Shown here piece after piece: positions 14,594 to 42,540 of a DNA stretch of 64,000 bases. The notes beneath the pieces are model-generated. The model ran no database searches, was not told the origin of the DNA, and worked only from the letters and a program-made list of their open reading frames with translations. The position numbers and the translations under genes are program-made. The first letter of the stretch is position 1. Every line of letters starts with the position of its first letter. Source of the DNA: Mycobacterium sp. Marseille-P9652 (GTDB lineage: Bacteria; Actinomycetota; Actinomycetes; Mycobacteriales; Mycobacteriaceae); NCBI RefSeq assembly GCF_902652685.1, contig NZ_CACRUY010000001.1, positions 1-64,000 of the forward strand. Direction: 5' to 3'.

Positions 14594-14607
14594 GGGTCGT
14601 AAGTCCT
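14594..14607. promoter_or_regulatory. Divergent DosR-like box (tgs1 / rightward anaerobic string)
   Basis: GGGTCGTAAGTCCT fits the DosR palindrome (GGGACTWWAGTCCC type). Its centre is 43 bp from the tgs1 start and 66 bp from the GltD-like start, both normal activator distances. It is the only such box I see before 23 kb and probably serves both directions. Confidence 0.65.
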
Positions 14608-14666
14608 CATGTTCTGAGGCCAAACGGCGGCTGTGCGGCCGCGCGCCCGGTCATATCGTGTGCGGG

Positions 14667-40000: not shown

Positions 40001-42540
40001 CCGAATTGCCGGAGCTCTCGGCGGCGATCGCCGGGCACCTCGCCAAGACCGACGCCGCCAGCGACGTGGTGGCGGACCTGGCCCTGTGGCGCCACGGCGA
40101 GGGGTCGGACGACGCGGCGGTGCTCGTCGAGGCCGAAAAGCTGTTGGCCGACTGCGAATTCGGGCGCGCGCTGCACCGGCTGGACCTGACGGTGACCACC
40201 GTCGAGGGGTCCGCGCCGGAGCGCTTCCGCACCCACCACTTCACCTTCCGCCAGGACGACGGCCGGTTCGCCGAGGACCCGCTCTACCGCAACCTGCACC
40301 CGATGCTCGCCAAGCGGCTCGACCTGTGGCGGCTGGGCAACTTCACGCTGCGCCGCCTGCGCTCGGCGGAGGACGTGTACGTGTTCCACGGGGTGGCGCG
40401 CGACAACCCGGCGGACCACCGGCTGTTCGCGCTGGCCGAGGTGCGGGACCTGACCCCGATCGAGGCCGCCGACGGCACGGTGCGCTACCCCCGGCTGGAA
40501 TTGATGGGTTCGCTTGCCCTGTCGGCGATGTGGGAGGCGCTGGGCACCTTCGACAAGCGGGACCGGCCGGCGGCCAACCGGATCGTCCTCTACGTCCGGC
40601 CGCCGTGGACCGTGCCGCGCGACGCCTGGACCGGACTGGCCCGCTCGTCGGCGCCGCTGGCGCTGGGCGCCGCGCTGGAGAAGCTGGTGCTGCGCGTGAC
40701 GTTCCCGGACGGACGCGAACGCGTCCTGGACGTGGAGGGCCTCGGCGAGGACGTGACGGTGCGGGAACGCCCACTCGGGCCGGAGCCGATCCGGCCGCTG
40801 ACGCCCTACCACCAGAAGTTGTTGCGTGCCAACCGGATCGGCGCGCCCTACCCGTACGAGATCGTGCGGATGCTGACCCCGCCGGCCGAGGCGGTGGCCC
40901 GCTTCCCGACCGGTGAGTTCGTCGAGCACGATCTCGACGAGCGGGGCGACCTGGTCCCCGTGTCGCGGCCGTACGGTGCCAACACCGCCAACGTGGTGGT
41001 CGGCCTGCTGCGCAACAACACCGAGAAGGTGCCCGAGGGGATGACCCGGGTGGCGCTGTTCGGCGACCCGACCCGCGGGCTCGGCAACATCGCGGAGCCC
41101 GAGTGCCGGCGGATCATCGGGGCGCTGGACCTCGCCGAGCGGATGGGGGTGCCGGTCGAGTGGTTCACGCTGTCGTCCGGCGCCAAGATCGCCATGGACA
41201 GCGGCACCGAGAACATGGACTGGATCGGTGCGGTGTTGCGCCGCCTGATCGAATTCACCCAGCGCGGAGGCGAAGTCAACGTCGTCGTCACGGGCGTGAA
41301 CGTCGGCGCGCAGCCGTACTGGAACGCCGAGGCCACCATGCTGATGCACACGCGCGGGATCCTCGTGATGACCCCCGCCAGCGCGATGGTGCTGACCGGC
41401 AAGCAGGCGCTCGACTACTCCGGTGGCGTGTCGGCCGAGGACAACTTCGGCATCGGCGGCTTCGACCGGATCATGGGACCCAACGGCCAGGGCCAGTACT
41501 GGGCTCCCACGCTGGCCGACGCGTGTGACATCCTGTTGCGCCACTACGAGCACACCTACGTGGTGCCGGGCGAGCGGTGGCCCCGCCGCCGGGCCACGAC
41601 CGACCCGGCGGACCGCGACGTCCGCCCGGCGCCCCACATCGCGTCGGGCGGCAGCGACATGGCGACGATCGGCGACATCTTCTCGGCCGAACACAACGCA
41701 GAACGCAAGAAGCCGTTCGACATGCGCTCGGTGATGCGGGCCGTGACGGACACCGATTCGGCGCCGCTGGAGCGCTGGCGCCAATGGCGGGGCGCCGAGA
41801 CCGCGATCGTGTGGGACGCCCACATCGGCGGCGTCCCGGTGTGCCTGCTCGGGATCGAATCGCACACGGTCCCGCGGCGGGGGTTCGTGCCCGCCGGCGG
41901 TCCCACCTCGTGGTCGTCGGGCACGCTGTTCCCCCAGGCGTCGCGTAAGCTCGCGCGCGCCATTAACGGCGCCAGCGGCAATCGCCCGCTCGTGGTGCTG
42001 GCGAACCTGTCGGGATTCGACGGCTCCCCGGAATCCATGCGGCGCTGGCAACTCGAGTACGGCGCCGAGATCGGCCGCGCCGTAACCAACTTCCGCGGCC
42101 CCATCGTCTTCGTGGTGGTGTCCCGCTACCATGGCGGCGCGTTCGTCGTCTTCTCCAAGAAACTGAACGAACGCATCGAGATCGCCGCCCTGGAAGGCTC
42201 TTTCGCGTCGGTGATCGGCGGCGCGCCCGCCGCCGCGACGGTGTTCGCCCGGGAGGTGGACCACCGCACCGCCGAGGATCCCGAGGTGCGAGAGGCGGCC
42301 GAGCGGGTGCGGCGGGCCGAGGGCGCCAACGCATCGGAGGTCGGCGCCGCGCGGGCGCGGCTGGCCGAGGTCAGCGCGGCCGTCCGGTCGGCGAAACTCA
42401 GCGAGGTCGCCGACGAGTTCGACGCCATCCACACCGTCCAGCGGGCGCGGGCGGTGGGTTCGGTGGACCGGATCATCGGCGCCGAGGCGTTGCGGCCCTA
42501 CGTCATCGACGCGCTCGAGCGCGGAATGTCAAGACAGTAG
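37006..42540 (+). CDS. Single-chain acyl-CoA (acetyl-CoA) carboxylase with eukaryotic-type layout
   Basis: This 1844-residue protein combines all carboxylase functions. A biotin carboxylase (about 1-450; ATP-grasp KAASGGGGRGIRM, then EVNTRLQVEHPITEATTG) is followed by a linker, a biotin carrier domain with biotinyl Lys629 in VESMKMETTI, a central region of about 640 residues, and fused N and C carboxyltransferase lobes (about 1320-1835; GDPTRGLGN, LANLSGFDGSPESMR). The central region includes LYRNLHPMLAKRLDLWRLGN, which resembles the ACC-central domain of eukaryotic enzymes, as does the NRIGAPYPYEI junction before the carboxyltransferase. Most bacterial carboxylases are multi-subunit, and the described mycobacterial single-chain long-chain acyl-CoA carboxylase is much shorter. 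With a TAGGAGG site overlapping the synthase stop, it probably makes malonyl-CoA for that synthase. Confidence 0.87.
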   Translation: MTTDIRRLAIVNRGEPAVRALTAVAELNQAGGQPPIRTIALYTDPDADAWFVREADEAVPLGSATYVDESDGARRSRYLDEAAVVAALRRARADAVWVGWGFVAEHASFAQACEDAGIIFVGPDSATIRLLGDKVAAKRVAEGADVPVVPWSGGPVEDIEEAARAAERLGYPVVVKAASGGGGRGIRMVADSSELAAALPSARAEAQLAFGDPTVFLEALVPAARHVEVQVIADGQGAVWAVGIRDCTLQRRHQKVLEESASTVLDGPKEQAIRDAAVRVAAAAGYRSAGTVEFLVDPDTGGFQFMEVNTRLQVEHPITEATTGLDLVKLQLHVARGGRLDGTPPTVTGHAVEARLCAEDPENGFAPAPGRLARLRLPAGAGIRVDAGVREGDRIPPDFDSMIAKIVAWGSDRGEALARLRRALRETTVVVEGGTTNRCFLLGLLGRPEVTASRFDNHWLDRLTSEAGHLPEPDPVALLAAAVESYDVDEAAEREAFFARAARGGAESTAGVGHRCRLRYRGQQYDLDVYRTGAATYRVTSGGGVADVAVTQRDAYRRRMVAGGRMHRVVTVADGATLRVDVDGAAHAVSRDDGGVVRCGGPAFVLAILVEPGDRVAEGDPLAVVESMKMETTITAPFAGNVASVETAANVQVEAGAPMVRITTSQGDDGSAAGAVDFAGLAAAAEHGDTPPCAPVYGALRGYLLGYDLDPGSLGAMLSRQRKLGESTPPADAHLLRCEDELLDLFADVGSLYRPRGDADSEELTGSTQEYMLSYLQWLDPDRAGLPDSYAQRLEQALQRYGVHGLARTPELEEAVVWMFRSFRRVADLVPAVTAILERRLRHHAELAQAADAAMRDRLDRLAAIGGRQRTVAELARDVRFHYFDEPLLQATVSDELAGARTDLGALRDDPDRPDRAARVERLVACPQPLRAELLRGWRDSHDPRVRRALLEVYTRRFYRIRDLRAVTVESHDGRLLGVADYDHEGRPVHLVTGYAPLAELPELSAAIAGHLAKTDAASDVVADLALWRHGEGSDDAAVLVEAEKLLADCEFGRALHRLDLTVTTVEGSAPERFRTHHFTFRQDDGRFAEDPLYRNLHPMLAKRLDLWRLGNFTLRRLRSAEDVYVFHGVARDNPADHRLFALAEVRDLTPIEAADGTVRYPRLELMGSLALSAMWEALGTFDKRDRPAANRIVLYVRPPWTVPRDAWTGLARSSAPLALGAALEKLVLRVTFPDGRERVLDVEGLGEDVTVRERPLGPEPIRPLTPYHQKLLRANRIGAPYPYEIVRMLTPPAEAVARFPTGEFVEHDLDERGDLVPVSRPYGANTANVVVGLLRNNTEKVPEGMTRVALFGDPTRGLGNIAEPECRRIIGALDLAERMGVPVEWFTLSSGAKIAMDSGTENMDWIGAVLRRLIEFTQRGGEVNVVVTGVNVGAQPYWNAEATMLMHTRGILVMTPASAMVLTGKQALDYSGGVSAEDNFGIGGFDRIMGPNGQGQYWAPTLADACDILLRHYEHTYVVPGERWPRRRATTDPADRDVRPAPHIASGGSDMATIGDIFSAEHNAERKKPFDMRSVMRAVTDTDSAPLERWRQWRGAETAIVWDAHIGGVPVCLLGIESHTVPRRGFVPAGGPTSWSSGTLFPQASRKLARAINGASGNRPLVVLANLSGFDGSPESMRRWQLEYGAEIGRAVTNFRGPIVFVVVSRYHGGAFVVFSKKLNERIEIAALEGSFASVIGGAPAAATVFAREVDHRTAEDPEVREAAERVRRAEGANASEVGAARARLAEVSAAVRSAKLSEVADEFDAIHTVQRARAVGSVDRIIGAEALRPYVIDALERGMSRQ

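Follow-up and report, generated by a model that had tools for sequence, protein, structure and literature searches.

A mycobacterial gene string that may couple a pyruvate:ferredoxin oxidoreductase module to a threonine-carrier lipid synthase within a DosR-type island

Why would a mycobacterium place a pyruvate:ferredoxin oxidoreductase (PFOR) ahead of a lipid megasynthase in a single run of genes, and does such a run encode one pathway? The question is raised by positions 14667-42540 of the first 64,000 nucleotides (hereafter, the window) of contig NZ_CACRUY010000001.1 of Mycobacterium sp. Marseille-P9652 (assembly GCF_902652685.1). An earlier note on this DNA had read the gene string as one pathway, from pyruvate to lipid. 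This was not borne out: the string is a composite of a mycobacterial front, made of PFOR, phosphoenolpyruvate (PEP) synthase and OtsB1-GH65 genes, and a transferable cassette at the rear, the two being separable modules. The best single account, to which we assign a probability of about 0.5, is that the string would be the operon of a hypoxia island and act as a hypoxic lipid sink.

The string consists of eight plus-strand genes in which neighbors overlap or sit at most 57 bp apart, as the earlier note had it and as open reading frame (ORF) coordinates and family assignments confirm. The first gene encodes a GltD-like NAD(P)/ferredoxin oxidoreductase with a C-terminal Fer4 domain (gltD, 14667 or 14658 to 16352; NF009410, 772 bits; Fer4_20, Pyr_redox_2 and Fer4) and overlaps by 4 bp the gene for a single-chain PFOR (16349-19939; TIGR02176, 1680 bits, cut-off 911), in which the defining POR_N, POR, EKR, Fer4 and TPP domains are all present in one chain. 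Next come a dihydroorotate-dehydrogenase-like (DHOD-like) flavoprotein (19939-20958; PF01180, 44 bits; 1-bp overlap), the PEP synthase PpsA (pyruvate, water dikinase; 20984-23395; TIGR01418, 1117 bits; after a 25-bp gap), and, after 57 bp, the first of two OtsB1-type fusions of HAD, trehalose-6-phosphatase and GH65 domains (otsB1a, 23453-27436, identified by domain matches). The cassette begins 31 bp further on with a protein of the acyl-CoA dehydrogenase fold (ACAD, 27468-29120; PF00441, PF02770 and PF02771; YEGTSEI present), followed after 1 bp by a secondary-lipid synthase that resembles Type R and has, by domain matches and motifs, the layout KS-MAT-KS2-ACP-ACP-KR-DH (29122-36993), and after 12 bp by an acetyl-CoA carboxylase (ACC) of 1844 aa (37006-42540; PF02786, PF02785, PF00364, PF08326 and PF01039). 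The ACC is of the eukaryote-like type, with BC, BCCP, ACC_central and CT in a single chain. An assignment to the long-chain carboxylase of M. avium paratuberculosis, presumably of about 1100 aa and different layout, was set aside given the length and central domain found here. Single-chain ACCs 48-52% identical are encoded in other genomes of the order, and in domain content the window's ACC resembles SACE_4237 of Saccharopolyspora, as described in the available part of PMC6491548, likewise a single chain with a central domain, whereas the present copy is tied to a lipid synthase. Convergent with the ACC gene, and overlapping it by 12 bp, is a minus-strand gene for a 4'-phosphopantetheinyl transferase (PPTase, 42529-43311; PF01648). 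No sigma-70-type promoter was detected in 14500-29200 or 27300-43400, and the earlier note likewise saw no convincing internal promoter; with chance expectations of 0.4 and 0.2 this is a weak test. The eight genes may form one transcript.

The separability of the modules emerged when twenty regions around gltD and four loci with the cassette were compared (genomes and loci are denoted by G and L numbers). The order gltD-pfor-dhod-ppsA occurs in six loci (the window, L177, L178, L179, L181 and L184), and ppsA-otsB1a-gltD-pfor-dhod in five (L186, L187, L188, L191 and L192). In L189 and L190, otsB1a precedes gltD-pfor-dhod at the edge of the stretch; in L185, L193 and L196 nothing of the module beyond gltD-pfor-dhod is seen; contig ends truncate L180 and L182; L183 lacks ppsA; and L194 and L195 have no pfor directly after gltD. 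The genes of the PFOR module tend, then, to stay together despite changed order. In G104 (L177) and G062 (L178), the same island is present without otsB1a, ACAD, synthase, ACC and PPTase, and ppsA is followed by the gene for a 294-aa protein that in the window lies beyond the PPTase. The junction between module and cassette recurs in M. xanthum (L183, on a contig equal in length to that of L068) and in the metagenome-assembled genome (MAG) MAG_BA163, which is represented by two contigs (L069 and L075), with gltD beyond the contig end; in G121 (L179) the junction is seen up to the ACAD, where the contig ends, and no synthase match was found in that genome. Among 198 genomes of the genus, gltD is present in three of the four with the synthase, compared to 23 overall (p 0.005, with kinship ignored and the two 198-genome draws taken as the same).

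A genome scan whose patterns do not contain the carrier motif retained 80 of 116 relatives. The full order ACAD-synthase-ACC-PPTase was identified in seven non-mycobacterial loci, from relatives of Actinoplanes (L067, L071 and L072), Lysobacterales (L073), Acidobacteria (L110 and L121) and Solirubrobacterales (L114). The ACAD was counted across those of loci L067-L129 in which the synthase start is preceded by 1.7 kb or more of sequence. It is encoded in all 10 loci that are neither mycobacterial nor from Elusimicrobia or unnamed MAGs, excepting Acetivibrio (L125), which has none; it is also found in L068 and L069, and in one of the 25 loci of the Elusimicrobia and unnamed-MAG group (L077). 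Because genes for the electron-transfer flavoprotein (ETF), EtfBA, adjoin the ACAD in 9 of the 11 non-mycobacterial loci that have one, the ACAD probably serves in trans as enoyl reductase for a synthase that lacks such a domain, rather than catalyzing acyl-CoA dehydrogenation as the earlier note had it. EtfB-EtfA precede the ACAD in L067, L070, L071, L072, L103, L105, L110 and L121, and are divergent beside it in L114; they are missing in L073 and the short L077. A role of the ACAD in fatty acid oxidation was set aside on account of the same neighbors. In 8 of these 11 loci there is also a linked gene for a CCG Fe-S oxidoreductase. Among the five mycobacterial loci (the window, L069, L183, L148 and L149), the PFOR module occupies the EtfBA slot in three, and the window genome encodes one EtfA, located elsewhere.

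A PPTase match lies somewhere in 29 of the 32 loci with enough sequence (28 of 31 without L123, which was admitted for having such a match). Three PF01648 matches, that at 42529-43311 included, occur in the window genome, so that the cassette is likely to come with a PPTase of its own. In both M. xanthum (L085) and Nucisporomicrobium (L067), the cassette adjoins genes resembling those of the WS/DGAT acyltransferase family (25-32% identical), which is weak support for a lipid sink, as mycobacteria carry many such genes; in L085, two of them, 27% and 32% identical to that of the window, flank the cassette PPTase.

The regulatory part of the account depends on a DosR-like box at 14591-14610, between gltD and a divergent minus-strand gene (13121-14557, with the ATG at 14557 and the ORF extending to 14623). 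The product of the latter is a WS/DGAT acyltransferase (PF03007/PF06974), so that the family implied by the earlier note holds, and tgs1 is that note's label only. Against the DosR consensus, the box scores 13/20, and its core (14594-14607) has three mismatches in 14 positions. The window contains seven core-level matches, compared to 3.3 after shuffling, with at least seven in 4 of 100 shuffled sequences, which taken alone is near chance; intergenic positions scoring at least 13/20 number five, compared to 1.5 in shuffles (6 of 300 reach five), or seven with another gene table, counted without shuffles. The three gaps within the string that are long enough for scanning score 10/20 at best. 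Across the window's genome, boxes with at most two mismatches to the consensus number 20 per strand, against 19 for a backwards-pattern control, so that the consensus by itself is a poor guide to DosR sites on the genome scale. A looser IUPAC motif was dropped (168 matches, 207 expected).

Because statistics within the window left the chance-level box undecided, conservation across loci was used instead. The 198 genus genomes contain 23 gltD loci (E at most 1e-100), nine of which, the window included, have a divergent WS/DGAT gene, and in all nine the block nCAGnGnCnnAAGTCCnnnn is kept. Its score is 13-14/20 in the window and the three loci closest to it, and 11-13/20 in the remaining five, which are more distant. 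In the other 14 gltD loci a divergent WS/DGAT gene is absent, and the best site within 300 bp reaches at most 12/20. The block is surely conserved, and we read it as a putative DosR site. The window also encodes, on the minus strand, a DosR (DevR) ortholog (57042-57713; 382 bits to DevR structure 3c3w over 209 aa), the only close match of its kind in the genome (468 bits against itself, with the next match at 111 bits), and a GAF-GAF-HisKA_3 kinase resembling DosS/DosT (55184-56974), with DevS and DosT domain structures among its top matches. A DosR context is backed by the conserved block, the DosR ortholog and the DosS-like kinase, and the box proposed in the earlier note is near chance when considered on its own. 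By the genes around it, the string lies in a DosR-type island. The earlier note mentioned neither the DosR and kinase genes nor the Thr carriers described below.

Judged by domain order, the synthase is a variant of the secondary-lipid synthases, nearest to Type R, set in that island. In the available text of Shulse and Allen 2011 (PMC3098273), Type R synthases show the same order KS-MAT-KS/CLF-ACP(n)-KR, are accompanied by a PPTase gene, as is the case here, and come from the same lineages, Elusimicrobium and Acidobacteria, with an adjoining ACC gene in Koribacter; the word Mycobacterium is absent from that text. The Type R definition is KS-MAT-CLF-ACP(3-6)-KR, whereas the present protein has two ACPs (its relatives have one to six), a KS2 that keeps its Cys, a DH after the KR, and Thr in the carriers; its cassette adds the ACAD and the single-chain ACC, and lies with PFOR in the DosR-type island.

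The synthase is rare in the genomes surveyed. A strong match was found in 4 of 198 genus genomes, the other 11 matches being relatives with 28-31% identity. Some match occurs in 215 of 396 Actinomycetota genomes; among the matches listed, most are 28-40% identical and lie outside the carrier part, and a strong match by the part from KS2 to the carriers is found in three genomes, plus a carrier fragment in G550. Six peptide patterns detected no synthase relative in viral contigs. Of 24 synthases chosen, 21 were aligned (36-59% identity) and used for a whole-protein tree that was built from this family only and includes relatives of the Elusimicrobium and Acidobacteria kind. The mycobacterial pair is placed beside the Actinoplanes relatives (support 1.0), and Lysobacterales pair with Solirubrobacterales at low support (0.16). 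The synthases of Nucisporomicrobium and Actinoplanes, which have a didomain carrier, are 74-77% identical. Because the synthases are spread over phyla, transfer is suggested. The catalytic residues are intact: invariant in all 21 are C/H/H of KS1, S/H/F of MAT, C/H/H of KS2, S and Y of KR, H of DH and the carrier Thr, the sole exception among the residues checked being the KR Asn, replaced by Ser in 5 of the 21. The MAT motif is HAFH, which we take to indicate the malonyl type.

The most unusual feature of the family is the carrier. Known phosphopantetheine attachment sites are otherwise Ser; here, both carrier domains read LEADLGVDTVKQAE, with Thr in place of the expected Ser, encoded by ACC at 34006-34008 and 34309-34311 on the plus strand. 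In alignments to solved ACPs the Thr falls on the attachment Ser. The domains match PF00550, and an AlphaFold2 model of the carrier (pLDDT 81, pTM 0.69) has the helical ACP fold, with helix II (residues 42-56) beginning at Thr42 of domain 1, that is, with the site at the helix start. A regular expression open to any residue at the site, applied to the window and to loci L067-L146 in their forward frames, returned Thr in 107 of 107 cases. A profile search yielded 120 Thr and no Ser in the synthase family (the window, L067-L129, L147, L150, L201, L202 and L212), after five rows cut at that column were set aside; the 120 include the two domains of the window a second time, as they recur in L200. 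As a control, the same search found Ser in 28 of 28 domains of related mycobacterial synthases (L053-L063). EADLG-DTVKQA is invariant in 18 aligned domains, and proteins carry one to six copies of the motif. We know of no natural carrier loaded on Thr, and none was found in the open full-text literature, including PMC3098273, PMC13291983, PMC6599236, PMC9310384, PMC5826065 and PMC8968710, with subscription papers largely outside this search. The Ser-type synthases L053-L063, with the carrier motif DSIKRVE, occur in 11 of the 198 genus genomes. PUFA-synthase-like hybrid clusters, which may or may not be of this kind, are described in two Mycobacteriaceae strains in the available part of PMC13291983.

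The remainder of the island surrounds the string. Upstream are HSP20, PAS-ANTAR and the WS/DGAT genes; an AT-rich block at 11707-11841, upstream of HSP20, is strongly kept in G104 and G062 and is not DosR-like (best 11/20). Downstream, a minus-strand run comprises a nitroreductase-like protein at its head (45373-46362, domain match), a KAS III-like enzyme (kas3, 44244-45347; PF08541/PF08545, with matches to KAS III structures), the 294-aa protein (43376-44260) and the PPTase. The 294-aa protein has no Pfam match and no PHROGs match, looks thiolase-like by eye, and gives a model of middling quality (pLDDT 73); it stays paired with KAS III, and in G036 and G104 paralogues are found close to another KS-AT gene. 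Two DosR-like sites precede the nitroreductase gene (46423-46461), the first unchanged and the second altered at a few bases in G104 and G062. Then follow an AAA_33 protein, universal stress proteins (USPs) and a second OtsB1-type trehalose-6-phosphatase/GH65 gene (48931-52695), in an order that presumably matches the Rv2004c-Rv2006 block of M. tuberculosis. The island thus has two OtsB1-type genes, of which the first travels with the PFOR module. Between a USP gene and the second copy lies a DosR-like site (48894-48913, 15/20), largely kept in G104 and G062. Farther downstream, beyond the kinase and DosR genes, are two more USPs and PfkB; we take OtsB1-type and PfkB proteins to belong to the DosR regulon of M. 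tuberculosis as well. The DosR regulon of M. avium, in the available part of PMC11876180, shares the DosR ortholog, a DosS-like kinase, USPs and nitroreductase; its DosR table contains no PFOR, PEP synthase or lipid megasynthase.

If the string is indeed a hypoxic lipid sink, hypoxia- or nitric oxide-activated DosR would bind the shared boxes and switch on the operon together with the divergent WS/DGAT gene on one side and, on the other, the convergent run from nitroreductase through kas3 to PPTase. PFOR would convert pyruvate to acetyl-CoA and reduced ferredoxin, the GltD-like Fe-S flavoprotein would pass the electrons to NADP(H), and the OtsB1-type GH65 protein and PEP synthase would feed or balance the PEP/pyruvate node. 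The single-chain ACC would supply malonyl-CoA to the synthase, which would extend an acyl chain with NADPH, assisted by the ACAD as enoyl reductase in trans and by the PPTase, which would load the carriers on Thr. Excess reductant and acetyl-CoA would thereby end in a stored or envelope lipid. The logic would be that of wax-ester fermentation in Euglena (available part of PMC5647427), the anaerobic disposal of reductant as lipid, by analogy only.

The sequence supports two elements of this scheme, the DosR context and the joining of a putatively malonyl-CoA-fed lipid synthase to PFOR. Several observations weigh against it. In G104 the cassette is on another contig, apart from the PFOR module; in G036, ACAD, synthase and ACC occur without gltD, and with no PPTase match in the 6 kb beyond ACC; and the actinobacterial MAG loci L103 and L105 show no ACC within the available stretch. 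EtfBA is beside the ACAD in none of the five mycobacterial loci, which bears on the enoyl reductase part. The box is degenerate (11/14 in the core), and in L158 and L160 a nearby position outscores the conserved block. In M. avium, neither a triglyceride synthase under DosRS nor a PFOR in the DosR list is reported in the available part of PMC11876180. PEP synthase spends ATP and, if PFOR runs oxidatively, would compete with it for pyruvate. Finally, because an artificial Ser-to-Thr change in spinach ACP-I is reported to have abolished function (PMC9310384, in the part available), ordinary ACP enzymes may be unable to accept Thr. This result, along with the general use of Ser and its presence throughout the related synthases, favors a different view, in which the Thr carriers stay unloaded and a separate carrier protein serves the synthase in trans; we consider this unlikely in light of the uniform Thr, the invariant motif in one to six copies, and the PPTase found in most loci. 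A bolder reading, which we hold to be less likely than not, is that a multi-phylum megasynthase family carries its chain on Thr-phosphopantetheine via a dedicated PPTase, and that mycobacteria wired it to DosR downstream of PFOR, giving the electrons of pyruvate an outlet that needs no oxygen.

PFOR and PEP synthase are the usual anabolic pair, and ppsA accompanies gltD-pfor-dhod whichever of the two gene orders is found, with otsB1a in many loci. PFOR could accordingly be a pyruvate synthase, with GltD driving electrons from NADPH to ferredoxin, CO2 fixed onto acetyl-CoA and the carbon sent to PEP and trehalose, while the lipid cassette would be a separate consumer of acetyl-CoA in the operon. 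The flow from NADPH to ferredoxin would be uphill, however, and PfkB in the island points to sugar breakdown; we hold this direction to be less likely than not. The modules might also be chance neighbors, the cassette having landed behind ppsA in an existing DosR island, to be co-transcribed without any metabolic link to PFOR. Such an origin fits G104 and G062, where the island lacks the cassette, and G104 and G036, where the cassette lies elsewhere. Against it speak the recurrence of the junction in M. xanthum, in MAG_BA163 and, as far as the ACAD, in G121, and the PFOR module taking the place of the electron-transfer genes; it too is less likely than not. Somewhat more plausible, but still a minority view, is that the product is a protective envelope lipid rather than an electron sink, given that related secondary-lipid synthases make the chains of heterocyst glycolipids and cyst phenolic lipids (available text of PMC3098273); the WS/DGAT gene beside the operon, and genes like it adjoining the cassette in two other loci, speak against this. 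As for the hypoxic lipid sink envisaged in the earlier note, the DosR ortholog, the DosS-like kinase, the conserved block and the synthase joined to PFOR favor it, whereas its single-pathway form fails, and PFOR with PEP synthase fits pyruvate synthesis as well.

The phosphopantetheine Ser is treated as universal in fatty acid, polyketide and peptide synthases, and a conserved Thr in otherwise intact synthases poses the question of whether a PPTase can load Thr, and why Thr is kept. It has long been asked how mycobacteria get rid of reductant when oxygen is lacking, and this putative operon would give a concrete, testable outlet beside the dormancy regulator.

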